Positions 24,650-62,178 of a DNA stretch of 64,000 nt are shown here, piece by piece; position 1 is the stretch's first letter, and the number at the start of each line of letters is the position of its first letter. The notes under the pieces were generated by a model. The model saw nothing but the letters and a program-made list of their open reading frames with translations, had not been told where the DNA came from and searched no databases. The translations under genes were made by a program, and so were the position numbers. Source of the stretch: Agelaius tricolor (taxonomy: Eukaryota; Chordata; Aves; Passeriformes; Icteridae); assembly GCA_023055355.1 (NCBI GenBank), contig JALJCS010000035.1, positions 372,001 to 436,000 on the forward strand, read 5' to 3'.

Positions 24650-24886
24650 CTATTGGGGAGAAATTGTGCCCTGGCAGGGCGGGCAGGCCCTGGCACAGGT
24701 GCCCAGAGCAGCCCCTGGATCCCTGCAGTGCCCAGGGCCAGGCTGGGCACTGGGGCTGGAGCACCTGGGACAGGGGAAGGTGTCCCTGGGACAGGGGAAG
24801 GTGTCCCTGCCATGGCAGGGGTGGATCTGGCTGATATTTAAGGTCCCTTCCAGCCCAAATCTCTCTGGGACTCTGATTCTGGTTTT
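24650..24886 (+). mobile_element. CR1 LINE, 5'-truncated 3' end
   Basis: Blocks CCCTGGCACAGGTGCCCAGA, GTCCCTGCCATGGCAGGGGT and GGTCCCTTCCAGCCCAAATC occur in CR1 order. GGGACAGGGGAAGGTGTCCC is duplicated in tandem. Confidence 0.88.
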
Positions 24887-28262: not shown

Positions 28263-28782
28263 TTCTGGGCACCCACACAAGCAGGAGAGTCAGGGCTGAA
28301 AGGCTCTGATGGGAGGCAGCAAAAGGCCAGGAAATGTAATTCCCTAAGGAGAGAGGACAGGAGCAGTGACCCCAGCCCCAGTGCCTGAGTGTGGGGCCCT
28401 GCAGGCACGGCTGGGCAGTTTTCCTTCCCAGTTGCAGGACTCCAAGTGCTGTGAAACCAGTGCTTCTGAGCCTGGTTTCCATCTGAGGCTGCTGCCCAGA
28501 CCCAGCCCTGCAGCAGGCCACGCTTTGCCATCCTCCAGCAGCTCCACCCTCTCGGGGTCTTTTTGGGTCGCTGTGACCCCGAGATTGTTAAAAGTCTCTT
28601 TTCCCAGCCTGACACTTGAAGGAGGAGTCAGGGCCCTTCATTTCTCGGTCTCAAGGTTGTTTATTGTTTCTTATCTATATAATTCTTTCTCCTGCCCTGC
28701 CCAGGTCCATCCAGCAGGACAGTTCCAGGCACTCTCCCTGCCCCTGGGCAGTGTTATGTCTTTATACTAAGACATAACACTA

Positions 28783-29524
28783 AGGGTTTTGGTTAAAGGA
28801 GAAATTTGTGAAGGGTTTTGGTTGAAGGAGAAATTTGTGAAGGGTTTTGGTTAAAGGAGAAATTTGTGAAGGGTTTTGGTTAAAGGAGAAACGTGTGAAG
28901 GGTTTTGGTAAAAGGAGAAGCGTGTGAAGGGTTTTGGTTAAAGGAGAAACGTGTGAAGGGTTTTGGTAAAAGGAGAAACGTGTGAAGGGTTTTGGTTGGA
29001 GGGGAAGCGTGTGAAGGGTTTTGGTTAAAGGAGAAACGTGTGAAGGGTTTTGGTTGGAGGAGAAACGTGTGAAGGGTTTTGGTTGGAGGAGAAGCGTGTG
29101 AAGGGTTTTGGTTGGAGGAGAAGTGTGTGAAGGGTTTTGGTTGGAGGGGAAGCGTGTGAAGGGTTTTGGTTGGAGGAGAAGTGTGTGAAGGGTTTTGGTT
29201 GGAGGGGAAGCGTGTGAAGGGTTTTGGTTGGAGGAGAAGTGTGTGAAGGGTTTTGGTTGGAGGGGAAGCGTGTGAAGGGTTTTGGTTGGAGGGGAAGCGT
29301 GTGAAGGGTTTTGGTTAAAGGAGAAACGTGTGAAGGGTTTTGGTTGGAGGGGAAGCGTGTGAAGGGTTTTGGTTGGAGGAGAAGCGTGTGAAGGGTTTTG
29401 GTTGGAGGGGAAGCGTGTGAAGGGTTTTGGTTAAAGGAGAAACGTGTGAAGGGTTTTGGTTGGAGGGGAAGCGTGTGAAGGGTTTTGGTTAAAGGAGAAA
29501 CGTGTGAAGGATTTTGGTTGGAGG
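28783..29524. repeat. 29-bp minisatellite, about 25 units
   Basis: The unit is GGGTTTTGGTTAAAGGAGAA plus ACGTGTGAA. Subtypes use TTGGAGG or TTAAAGG and GCGTG, ACGTG, GTGTG or TTTGTG. TTTGTG units cluster at the left end, and the remaining variants intermix to the right. The 29-bp period rotates through all frames and leaves a 189-codon minus frame open. Confidence 0.95.
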
Positions 29525-44543: not shown

Positions 44544-44710
44544 TCACTCGCGCTTCCGCAGGATGACGTAGACGATGCCGCTGGCCAGGGCCAGGGGGAA
44601 GGCCAGCCACGCCAGGATGTAGGCGAAGCCGTAGGAGGTGCTTTCCGAGGCTTGGTGCCAGTCCGTGTGCCTCACGGTGAAGATGGCAGCGCCGCTCATC
44701 ACGCACAGCC
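44544..44710 (-). CDS. PMP22: PMP22 terminal coding exon (residues 104-158 and stop)
   Basis: The acceptor is CCTCGCAG, with AG at 44712-44711. The exon completes Gly104 and reads [20 protein letters not shown], then [20 protein letters not shown], ending VYVILRKRE and TGA at 44546-44544. It encodes the rest of the third helix, the second extracellular loop and the fourth helix. The loop is one residue longer than human and diverges there (QASEST against LNSDY). The arginine-rich C-terminus, involved in ER retention and trafficking in mammals, is intact. About 20 nt upstream of this exon the intron turns into a 1.3-kb minisatellite, so the branch point and much of the pyrimidine tract are made of repeat sequence. 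Confidence 0.97.
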
Positions 44711-44721
44711 CTGCGAGGCAG

Positions 44722-46012
44722 CACGGGGACAGTCAGCGACAGCATGGGACAGTGAGTGACACACGGGACAGTGAGTGACAGCATGGGACAGTCAGCGACA
44801 CATGGGACAGTGAGTGACACACGGGACAGTCAGTGACACACGGGACAGTCAGTGACAGCATGGGACAGTCAGCGACACATGGGACAGTGAGTGACACACG
44901 GGACAGTCAGTGACACACGGGACAGTCAGTGACAGCATGGGACAGTCAGTGACACACGGGACAGTGAGTGACACATGGGACAGTCAGTGACACACGGGAC
45001 AGGCAGTGACAGCATGGGACAGTCAGTGACACACGGGACAGTCAGTGACACACGGGACAGGCAGTGACACACGGGACAGTCAGTGACAGCATGGGACAGT
45101 CAGTGACACACGGGACAGTGAGTGACACATGGGACAGTCAGTGACACACGGGGGACAGTCAGCGACACATGGGACAGTGAGTGACACACGGGACAGTCAG
45201 TGACACACGGGACAGTCAGTGACACATGGGGGACAGTCAGTGACACACGGGACAGTCAGCGACACACGGGACAGTGAGTGACAGCATGGGACAGTGAGTG
45301 ACACACGGGACAGTCAGTGACACACGGGACAGTGAGTGACACACGGGACAGTCAGTGACACACGGGACAGTCCGTGACACAGGGGACAGTCAGTGACACA
45401 GGGGACGGTCAGCGACACATGGGGGACAGTCAGTGACACACGGGACAGTCAGTGACACAGGGGACAGTCAGTGACACATGGGACAGTCAGTGACAGCATG
45501 GGACAGTCAGTGACACACGGGGGACAGTCAGTGACACATGGGACAGTCAGTAACACACGGGACAGTCAGCGACACATGGGACAGTCAGTGACAGCATGGG
45601 ACAGTCAGTGACACACGGGGGACAGTCAGTGACACATGGGACAGTCAGTAACACACGGGACAGTCAGCGACACATGGGACAGTCAGTGACAGCATGGGAC
45701 AGTCAGTGACACACGGGGGACAGTCAGCGACACACGGGACAGTCAGTGACACACGGGGGACAGTCAGTGACAGCATGGGACAGTGAGTGACACATGGGAC
45801 AGTCAGCGACACATGGGACAGTCAGTGACACACGGCACAGTCAGTGACACACGGGACAGTCAGTGACACACGGGACAGTGAGTGACACATGGGACAGTCA
45901 GTGACACACGGGGCACAGTCAGTGACACACGGGACAGTGAGTGACACACGGGACAGTCAGTGACACATGGGACAGTCAGTGACACACGGGGCACAGTCAG
46001 TGACACACAGGA
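44722..46012. repeat. Large minisatellite, about 19-bp unit, abutting the PMP22 terminal exon
   Basis: The unit is GGGACAGTCAGTGACACAC, repeated roughly 65-70 times with variants GTGAG for GTCAG, CAGCATGGG for CACACGGG, and occasional extra G. On the gene's sense strand the unit reads GTGTCACTGACTGTCCC. The array ends about 12 nt before the terminal exon's AG (44712-44711). Plus-strand CT, which is AG in the transcript, is absent from 44713 through 46018. The nearest sense CTGAC (44736-44732) puts its A 23 nt from the exon, a normal branch-point distance. Confidence 0.95.
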
Positions 46013-46447
46013 CAGTCCCTGCTAGGAGCCCCAGGCACACAGGGCAGCAGCCAGCACCAGCACAGGGGCTGGCTCTGCTCTGCCCCCTCGGGTCCCGTCA
46101 CCTGGGAGGTTTGGGAGGGGATGCTGTGGGCTCTGGCCTGGCTGGAGGGGAGCAGGGATGTCTCTGCCACGCTCAGCAAGCAAAGCCAGAGGTTCTGGAG
46201 CACCACCTGGGCTAACCCATCCCTCAGGCAGACCAGGGATGCTGCTCCACACCAACCCCGCTCCCCTGGTGCCTTGTGTAAAGCCTGGCCTGAGCCACCT
46301 CCCCGCAGTGCTGCAGGAGGGCACACTCAGAGCTGGGCTTTCAAAGCAAGGTGTCTGTATCACCTCTCTAGGTGACAAAAACCCCAAACCCAGCTGGGCC
46401 TCAGGATGCTCTGGCTGGGATCCCCCATCCTTCACAGCTGCACCAGA

Positions 46448-49423: not shown

Positions 49424-49564
49424 CTGCCAGGATCTGGAAGACTCCGGTGATGTAGAAGCGGCCGCCCTTGGTGAGCGTGAAGAGCTGGCAGAAGAACAGG
49501 AACAGTGACAGCACGCTGAAGATGACGGAGAGGATCATCATGGCTTGGACAGACTGCAGCCATT
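49424..49564 (-). CDS. PMP22: PMP22 third coding exon (residues 57-103, second and third membrane spans)
   Basis: The exon is 141 nt, identical in length to mammalian exon 4. It is bounded by a CCCCAG acceptor (AG at 49566-49565) and a GTGAGT donor (49423-49418). It completes the split Glu57 codon and reads [17 protein letters not shown], then [17 protein letters not shown] and [12 protein letters not shown]. It covers the second membrane helix, the short cytosolic KGGR turn and the start of the third helix. Differences from human are conservative (T to M, I to V). It ends one base into the Gly104 codon. A pure AAGGG pentamer on the sense strand lies about 100 nt downstream in the intron. Confidence 0.98.
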
Positions 49565-54359: not shown

Positions 54360-54606
54360 GAGATTTTTAGATTTTAGGAGTAAATTCTTTACCCAGAGGT
54401 GGGCAGGCCCTGGCACAGGTGCCCAGAGCAGCTGGGGCTGCCCCTGCATCCCTGGCAGTGCCCAAGGCCAGGCTGGACACTGGGGCTGGAGCACCTGGGA
54501 CAGTGGGAGGTGTCCCTGGGACAGTGGAGGTGTCCCTGCCATGGCAGGGGTGGCACTGGGTGGGATTTAGGGTCCCTTCCAGCCCAAACCATCTGGGATC
54601 CTGTGA
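54360..54606 (+). mobile_element. CR1 LINE, 5'-truncated 3' end
   Basis: The sequence follows the CR1 3' region in order: CCCTGGCACAGGTGCCCAGA, CAAGGCCAGGCTGGACA, GTCCCTGCCATGGCAGGGGT, then GGTCCCTTCCAGCCCAAACC and TGGGATCCTGTGA. The block GGGACAGTGGGAGGTGTCCC is partly duplicated. It is too short to encode the reverse transcriptase and is antisense to PMP22. Confidence 0.9.
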
Positions 54607-57318: not shown

Positions 57319-58189
57319 GCAGCTCGCATGACTGGCCCTGCAGCGGGGCTGCCGACGCGGCAATAGCCGGCCCGGCCGATGCGGGCCCGGCTCCAGGGGC
57401 TCGGGATGCGATCCAGCCGCTCCCGGCTGGCCCGGACACCAGCAGGCGTCAGCAGAGACCTGTGCGGGGCCGGGAGCTGCCCGAGGAACCAGAGCGGGGA
57501 CAGCGGGGACAGCCTGGGGACACAGCAGGGCACCGCCTCCCGCGGGCGGAACGCGAGTGCTGTGCTCCCAAAGGATGGGGGTTCTGATGGGAACCTCCAA
57601 AAACCCTCCCCTGAGGCACCCTCCAGGAGCACGGACTGCTCCCCGTGTGGCTGTGAGCCTCACCAGGGCCACACGGCATCGCTGTGCCCGTGTCCCAGTG
57701 ATGGTGCTGGGATTCTGGCACTGGGGCTTGCCCTGGGACAATCTGTTCTCCCAGGAAAGCAAAAACCAGGCTAACGATACAAATGCTGGCCCCAGCACCA
57801 CTGGCATTAGCTGTGTCTTCCAGGGAAACTGAGGCACGGGCTGGCCCAACTCTCGGACACGGATTTTGTGCTCCTGGTGCCACTGGTCACCCTGGGAAGG
57901 GCGCGTCACGTCACGGTGTGTCAGCACACTGTCCTCCCCTGCTGGCCTCAGCAGCCAGCTCAGGGGTGGTGTCACACAGTGTGACACACCAGCCTTCACC
58001 AGCGGGGTCCCGCGGAGGCCGTGCAGCCCCGGTGTGCCCCTGAGTGCCCTCGGGGCACTCAGCTCAGCCCCCACAGCAAACCCCGGGGCCAGGGCTGTGC
58101 CCAAACCTCAGCCCGTGCCAGCACAAAACCAGCACAGATTTCCAGGTAGGGGACAGGTGTCCTCTGGATCAGGTCTTCTCAGGGCCCCG

Positions 58190-58912
58190 ATCCATGGGGG
58201 GGCACAGCCCCGATCCATGGGGGGGCACAGCCCCGATCCATGGGGGGGACACAGCCCCGATCCATGGGGGGGACATCCCTGATCCATGGGGGGGACACAG
58301 CCCCGATCCAGGGGGGGGACACAGCCCTGATTCCAGGGGACACAGCCCCGATCCCGGGGGCACAGCCCCGATTCCAGGGGACACAGCCCGATCCATGGGG
58401 GGGGGCACAGCCCCGATTCCAGGGGACACAGCCCGATCCATGGGGGGGGGCACAGCCCCGATCCCGGGGGGCACAACCCCGATCCATGGGGGGGACACAG
58501 CCCCGATCCATGGGGGGGACACAACCCCGATCCAGGGGGGGGGCACAGCCCCGATCCATGGGGGGGACACAGCCCCGATCCATGGGGGGGACACAGCCCC
58601 GATCCATGGGGGGGACACAGCCCCGATCCAGGGGGCACAGCCCTGATCCCGAGGACACAGCCCCGATTCCAGGGGACACAGCCCCGATCCATGGGGGGGA
58701 CACAGCCCCGATCCATGGGGGGGACACAGCCCCGATCCAGGGGGCACAGCCCTGATCCCGAGGACACAGCCCCGATTCCAGGGGACACAGCCCCGATCCA
58801 TGGGGGGGACACAGCCCCGATCCATGGGGGGGACACAGCCCCGATTCCAGGGGACACAGCACCGATCCAGGAGGGCACAGCCCCGATTCCAGGGGGGGGA
58901 CACAGCCGCGAT
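58190..58912. repeat. G-run minisatellite, about 24-bp unit, next to the exon 3 donor
   Basis: About 30 units based on CACAGCCCCGATCCATGGGG plus a run of six to nine G, with a second subtype CCCGATTCCAGGGGACACAG. Subtypes alternate in blocks. The last unit ends about 14 nt from the GTGAGT donor of the second coding exon. G-runs lie on the plus strand, which is the template for PMP22 transcription. Confidence 0.93.
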
Positions 58913-58926
58913 CCGAGGGCACTCAC

Positions 58927-59017
58927 CGTTGGAGGAGGATGCCGTGCACTGGAAGTGGTTGCCGGTGGTGCAGTTCTGCCACAGGTCTGCCGCGCGTTCG
59001 CCGCTCACCAGCCATTG
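58927..59017 (-). CDS. PMP22: PMP22 second coding exon (residues 27-56, first extracellular loop)
   Basis: The exon is flanked by CCCGCAG (acceptor, AG at 59019-59018) and GTGAGT (donor from 58926). It starts QWLVSGERAADLWQNCTT and ends in SSSN plus one base of a split Glu codon. It holds the claudin-family W-x-x-C signature: Trp39, Cys42 and a second cysteine at 50. The conserved N-glycosylation sequon is kept at Asn41 (N-C-T). It is 91 nt long against 100 nt in human; the three missing codons lie between the two cysteines, so their spacing falls from 10 to 7 intervening residues. Phase is preserved, so this is a clean in-frame length change. The human NGHAT segment is replaced by GERAA. A minisatellite begins about 14 nt beyond the donor. 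Confidence 0.96.
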
Positions 59018-59028
59018 CTGCGGGACAG

Positions 59029-59072
59029 ACACAGCCCGTGAGCGGGTCAGACACAGCCCGTGAGCGGGTCCC
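59029..59072. repeat. 21-bp tandem duplication upstream of the exon 3 acceptor
   Basis: Two copies of GACACAGCCCGTGAGCGGGT lie 11-55 nt upstream of the second coding exon in the sense direction, so they form the polypyrimidine and branch-point region of that splice site. Sense copies read ACCCGCTCACGGGCTGTGTC and carry a CTCAC branch-point-like motif. Confidence 0.8.
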
Positions 59073-60184: not shown

Positions 60185-60262
60185 ACTGACGATGGTGGAG
60201 ACGAAGAGCAGCACCAGCACGGTGACGTGCAGCACGATGATCCCCAGCAGCAGGAGCAGCAT
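60185..60262 (-). CDS. PMP22: PMP22 first coding exon (residues 1-26)
   Basis: The ATG reads from 60262 to 60260 and has A at position -3, a good Kozak context. It opens a 26-residue segment that forms the first transmembrane helix and ends IVS. It begins MLLLLLGIIVLH, as in PMP22. Leu16, the residue changed in the Trembler-J mouse and one human CMT1A allele, is present. The exon ends in AGT and is followed by GTGAGT at 60184-60179, exactly at c.78 as in mammals. The 5'UTR part of this exon probably starts at 60284, after a CTGCAG acceptor, which would give 22 untranslated nt. A second CAG nearer the ATG is a weaker alternative. This hydrophobic start acts as an uncleaved signal anchor in the family. 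Confidence 0.97.
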
Positions 60263-61784: not shown

Positions 61785-62178
61785 CTGCCTGTGGAAGGCT
61801 CTGGGGAGAGCTCAGAGCCCTTCCAGTACCTAAAGGGGCTCCAGGAGAGCTGGAGGGGGACCTGGGACAAGGGCTGGAGGGACAGGACACAGGGAATGGC
61901 TCCCACTGCCAGAGGGCAGGGCTGGATGGGATATTGGGAATTGGGAATTGCTCCCTGGCAGGGTGGGCAGGCCCTGGCACAGGGTGCCCAGAGCAGCTGG
62001 GGCTGCCCCTGCATCCCTGGCAGTGCCCAAGGCCAGGCTGGACATTGGGGTTGGAGCAGCCTGGGACAGTGGAAGGTGTCCCTGGGACAGTGGGAGGTGT
62101 CCCTGCCATGGCAGGGGTGGCACTGGATGGGCTTTGGGGTCCCTTCCAGCCCAAACCCTTCTGGGATTCTGTGACTCA
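61785..62178 (+). mobile_element. CR1 LINE, longest copy in the window (5'-truncated)
   Basis: It begins near GGGGAGAGCTCAGAGCCCTT and includes GGAATGGCTCCCACTGCCAG, CCCTGGCACAGGGTGCCCAG and CAAGGCCAGGCTGGACATTG. It ends GGTCCCTTCCAGCCCAAACC and TTCTGGGATTCTGTGA. It covers only the 3' end of the element, without intact coding sequence, and lies about 650 bp upstream of exon 1. Confidence 0.92.

Follow-up and report, generated by a model that had tools for sequence, protein, structure and literature searches.

A minisatellite at the end of PMP22 intron 4 as the probable source of the exon 5 branch point

Intronic minisatellites are usually taken as inert unless they disturb splicing. In the Agelaius tricolor DNA analyzed here (64,000 nt, hereafter the window), a minisatellite runs almost up to the acceptor of PMP22 exon 5, and this raises the questions of where that exon finds its branch point and whether the long AG-free zone formed by the repeat is a splicing device. 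An initial annotation had proposed both a branch point supplied by the minisatellite and a functional role for the AG-free zone, in which distal branch points would be used. The two proposals fare differently.

The PMP22 gene and its last intron

The gene is PMP22. Four coding exons on the minus strand of the window join into a 158-aa open reading frame, which belongs to the PF00822 family (Pfam match at 1.6e-48), ends in the PMP22 C terminus (ILRKRE) and has the PMP22 last-intron phase; the identity first given to exon 5 is thereby borne out. Introns 2, 3 and 4 measure 1,167, 9,362 and 4,713 nt. With a human PMP22 sequence as the tblastn query, all four coding exons were recovered, at 77% identity in exon 5 and just 46% in exon 3. 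Exon 5 is presumably the terminal exon of the gene. A PDB sequence search gave no matches at E 0.001, and Rfam gave none on the whole window at gathering thresholds. Positions are collected in Table 1.

Table 1. Features of the PMP22 locus discussed in the text (window coordinates)
Feature	Position	Strand	Basis
PMP22 exon 2, coding part	60185..60262	-	tblastn, joined ORF
22-bp tandem duplication, 2.3 copies, at exon 3 acceptor	59020..59070	-	TRF
PMP22 exon 3	58927..59017	-	tblastn, joined ORF
736-bp minisatellite, TRF periods 24 and 45, near exon 3 donor	58184..58919	-	TRF
PMP22 exon 4	49424..49564	-	tblastn, joined ORF
First AGs upstream of the AG-free zone (AGCAG)	46019..46023	-	sequence
AG-free zone, 1,306 nt	44713..46018	-	dinucleotide scan
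Minisatellite of about 19 bp, 66 unit cores, 63 yUnAy motifs, no sense-strand AG	44726..46017	-	TRF, core matching
Array core nearest exon 5, CTGAC, proposed branch A at -23 (44733)	44728..44740	-	motif scan
Non-array tail of intron 4, CGTGCTGCCTCGCAG, sole A that of the acceptor	44711..44725	-	sequence
Exon 5 acceptor AG	44711..44712	-	frame and phase of joined ORF
PMP22 exon 5, coding part, 167 nt including stop	44544..44710	-	junctions, joined ORF, tblastn, Pfam PF00822

The AG-free zone had been described with its exact limits. No longer CT-free run exists on the plus strand of the window, and the next AG above the zone stands at 46020/46019. Exon 4 has an AG exclusion zone of 24 nt and exon 3 one of 54 nt, and distant-branch-point exons are recognized by at least 100 AG-free nt before the acceptor, a length that the exon 5 zone exceeds. 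All of the zone except 14 nt (13 on the exon side and 1 on the far side) is minisatellite, the edge of which lies 15 nt from exon 5.

TRF gave this array a period of 19 and 66.5 copies. Its 66 cores comprise 35 copies of GACAGTCAGTGAC, 13 of GACAGTGAGTGAC, 9 of GACAGTCAGCGAC and 9 others, and the core pattern, with up to 2 mismatches allowed, occurs 66 times in the window, every time inside the array. The units had been said to carry CTGAC or CTCAC, and a yUnAy motif was indeed found in 63 of them (50 CTGAC, 13 CTCAC); it is missing from three, and none has CTAAC. Unit variants are scattered across the array, in which an identical stretch of 157 nt (first copy 45473-45629) recurs at a distance of 98.

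Candidate branch points of exon 5

The 15 nt between the array and exon 5 contain an adenosine only in the acceptor AG, and no other A occurs within 22 nt of the intron end. The next adenosines upstream, at -23 (CGCTGAC), -35, -43 (CACTCAC) and -47, all lie within the array. Because the tail holds no other A, the branch adenosine has to be either one of the array or one over 1.3 kb further up, provided that exon 5 is spliced at its conserved position. Judged from this composition, the former is almost certainly the case. The proposed origin of the branch point in the minisatellite is strengthened, since no adenosine from outside the array stands near the exon except the acceptor's own.

The nearest CTGAC does have its A at -23, as first annotated, and belongs to the last unit of the array; the nearest CTCAC has its A at -43. 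Between the -23 A and the acceptor AG lie 20 nt, 75% of them pyrimidine. In human introns, the segments from branch point to acceptor have a median length of 22 nt, with 87% of them in the range of 15-35 nt, and a median pyrimidine content of 76% (PMC10655562), and 19-23 nt has been termed optimal in humans (PMC9508853). The 3' splice site of exon 5 would be a normal one that has the last minisatellite unit for its upstream half.

In a simple U2-pairing count, the -23 site scores 4.0, the best exon 3 candidate 3.5 and the exon 4 candidate 3.0. Forty array motifs outscore the -23 site, namely 38 CACTGAC (4.5) and 2 TACTGAC (5.5). The -23 CGCTGAC is weaker than these units further up, so upstream sites could compete with it. 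More than one branch point per acceptor has been reported for over 60% (PMC10638238) or 68% (PMC10655562) of human introns.

The reading that we favor, with a probability of about 0.72 for the whole of it, is as follows. The end of PMP22 intron 4 would have acquired a minisatellite, by local origin or by capture, which now constitutes the 3' splice site of exon 5 save for the last 15 nt. Branching would take place mainly on the CTGAC nearest the exon, with the CTCAC at -43 as a minor alternative; both would be ordinary U2-type branch points in a constitutively spliced intron, and the approximately 60 motifs further up would be mostly redundant. The 1.3-kb AG-free zone would be a passive, unselected outcome of multiplying a unit without AG, and permissive because every possible branch point leads to one and the same acceptor. 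We infer branch use, constitutive splicing and passivity from the arrangement described above.

The sequence allows this presumably terminal exon almost no branch point outside the array. It thereby provides a clear-cut natural case for deciding whether distance alone selects one branch point out of dozens of nearly identical tandem copies.

Absence of AG and alternative roles of the array

Set against single-base chance, the run lies far outside expectation: in 100 first-order Markov versions of the window, the longest CT-free run had a mean of 104.8 and a maximum of 146. Such a null does not suit a tandem array. Among the 16 arrays of at least 250 bp in the window, two are CT-free and none is AG-free on the plus strand (2 of 32 array-strands), when the state is required over at least 80% of the array length. 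For a random circular 19-mer drawn from the non-repeat parts of the window, the probability of containing no CT is 0.215. A founder unit without AG, once multiplied, would make the AG-free zone as long as the array.

Of the 57 possible single substitutions in the unit, 7 would produce CT, and each of these is a transversion. The core variants, with linkers left out, fall into 3 transition and 4 transversion classes, and four transversion classes avoid CT by chance with a probability of 0.51; no avoidance of AG was detectable among the array variants by this class test, which is of low power. In simulations with k independent point mutations, the array stayed CT-free with a probability of 0.43-0.55 (k=9), 0.05-0.15 (k=30) or 0.003-0.02 (k=60), so that 30 or more such mutations would speak against mere chance, and duplication within the array, as in the 157-nt stretch, lowers the number of mutations that are independent. 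No AG depletion beyond chance was detected. The zone is more likely a side effect of the repeat unit than a selected device. TT is likewise missing from the unit, and certain large AG-free zones appear to be unrelated to splicing in the survey of Gooding et al. (PMC1431707).

A separate idea on origin found no support, namely that the array was born from the splice site, with the last 17 nt of the intron as a decayed unit: when the inner 11 nt were shuffled 1,000 times, 125 shuffles reached the score of 17.

The initial annotation proposed a functional AG exclusion zone in which distal branch points could compete, with array length possibly tuning exon 5 inclusion and the dose of PMP22. In favor of this are 1,306 nt free of AG and 63 motifs, 40 of them scoring above the -23 site. 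Against this, a conventional candidate stands at -23, and distal branch points become unnecessary when a branch point is available at normal distance; a founder unit without AG suffices for the zone, AG depletion was not detected (at low power), and exon 5, presumably terminal, has no downstream acceptor to which skipping could proceed. Published cases point both ways. Distant-branch-point exons exist and share with PMP22 exon 5 a long AG-free stretch and more than one candidate branch point; 381 and 438 nt are the longest zones named in the relevant passages, whereas the PMP22 zone extends over 1,306 nt and is a tandem array (PMC1431707). Such exons are typically without an obvious near branch point, many of the candidates of Gooding et al. 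having a clear distant site and none that is obvious nearby, whereas exon 5 has a good near candidate in its CTGAC (PMC1431707). The length of a splice-site VNTR in ABCA7 can track exon skipping (PMC5954066), but fission-yeast spliceosomes favor a near 3' splice site over a distant one (PMC9508853). The exclusion-zone function, competition among some 65 sites and dosage tuning are conjectural, and the sequence speaks mildly against them; no sign of distal branching, copy-number tuning or dosage control emerged from it, and we regard them as unlikely.

Array and tail together hold 16-18 stop codons per frame, and their sense strand has 225 GT but neither GTRAG nor GGT; the array therefore offers no acceptors and no consensus-like donors. 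Use of either AG at 46019..46023 as an acceptor would lead to a truncated frame of 123 or 124 aa, and retention of intron 4 to one of 136 aa. An RNA structure that draws distal branch points near the exon was also considered and is not indicated for the last 300 nt of the intron, which fold less stably than 200 of 200 shuffles (z = +3.3).

It is similarly improbable that the array is a branch-point decoy, with tandem motifs that bind SF1 or U2 snRNP and slow the removal of intron 4, so that array length sets retention. A motif in 63 of 66 units and the weak folding of the intron end, which would leave the motifs accessible, are consistent with this role, and in Gomafu/MIAT, where branch-point-like motifs are also tandemly repeated in one transcript, the repeats show SF1 binding and slow splicing in vitro (PMC3116199). 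The Gomafu motif, however, is UACUAAC, which the array lacks (no CTAAC, two TACTGAC), and since all PMP22 motifs feed one acceptor, binding need not inhibit. Gomafu repeats are exonic, in a lncRNA, and proposed to act in trans, whereas the PMP22 array is intronic, carries CACUGAC and would act in cis (PMC3116199).

That the length or order of the array is an assembly artefact is very improbable, in spite of long identical internal stretches such as the 157 nt at distance 98, given that unit variants are dispersed through it and that the window is rich in tandem arrays, with 61 non-redundant ones and 20% of its bases in such repeats.

Related systems and repeats at other PMP22 junctions

Among other genes, PKD1 has a polypyrimidine tract of 2.5 kb. 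The closest published case found is the VNTR in intron 18 of human ABCA7, with a C-rich 25-bp unit the first two bases of which form the exon 18 donor, and the length of which tracks skipping of exon 19 (PMC5954066). Like it, the PMP22 intron 4 array is a C-rich intronic minisatellite that abuts an exon and carries a splice signal inside, its edge being 15 nt from the acceptor and the near adenosines within it. The ABCA7 array holds a donor and has demonstrated length effects, whereas the PMP22 array, known from one sequence, holds the putative branch point of an acceptor (PMC5954066).

Other systems are less similar. The 7-bp repeat in intron 5 of dog LHX3 is also GC-rich and intronic, and its copy number bears on splicing; loss of one unit there leaves a 68-bp intron and the authors discuss intron size, whereas PMP22 intron 4 has 4,713 nt (PMC3223203). 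GC-rich avian genes resemble PMP22 in having introns that are largely tandem repeats, and the relevant passages of that report, in contrast to the present work, contain no branch-point analysis (PMC6792250). Passages on the canine MCHR2 VNTR (PMC8912139), and those on 792 human introns within tandem repeats with dual-specific splice sites (PMC10809524), do not mention branch points in an array. Among the literature matches listed, which consist of titles and beginnings of abstracts and lie mostly outside subscription papers, none describes an array-supplied branch point.

Exon 3 provides a new observation of the same kind at both of its ends. The tandem duplication at its acceptor holds the adenosines at -22, -30, -44 and -52, which are the only ones, apart from that of the acceptor, within 57 nt of the intron end, so the candidate branch adenosines of exon 3 likewise lie within tandemly duplicated sequence. 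At the other end, the edge of the 58184-58919 minisatellite lies at a distance of 7 nt from the first donor base, a layout that resembles the ABCA7 VNTR (PMC5954066). This minisatellite contains 35 sense-strand runs of at least 3 G.

A broader reading, which we put forward tentatively, is that minisatellites have taken over splice signals at several PMP22 junctions. With the branch points of exon 3 as well as exon 5 located in tandem duplications, a dosage-sensitive gene would owe its branch points to DNA that may be hypervariable. The functional variable would be the loss or exchange of the last unit, not total copy number, and the upstream units would form a reserve from which splicing is maintained after mutation of the terminal unit.

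The remaining junctions do not follow this pattern. The candidate branch point of exon 4, at -28 (CTGAG), belongs to no array, and the nearest repeat is 400 nt from the exon 2 donor, 241 nt from the exon 4 acceptor and 99 nt from the exon 4 donor. Three of the six coding junctions are thus within 15 nt of a tandem repeat. When the repeats were slid against the gene, with coding exons kept repeat-free, the observed position included and neighboring shifts non-independent, three junctions were reached in 3 of 16,826 shifts; two were reached in 32 of 21,290 shifts (0.0015) for blocks of at least 100 bp and in 19 of 28,325 (0.0007) for blocks of at least 250 bp. The test is post hoc and covers one gene, in which two of the three junctions belong to a single 91-nt exon; the proximity is a lead and no proof of enrichment.

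Elsewhere in the window, where the 61 non-redundant tandem arrays take up 20% of the 64,000 nt, a second CT-free array is found at 28782-29524 (743 of 743 bp); it has a 29-bp unit and is missing TC and CA too. Short tandem duplications at 24764-24809, 54494-54538 and 62060-62105 share a near-identical unit of 20-21 bp (CCTGGGACAG...GGTGTC), and these three perhaps derive from one interspersed element.
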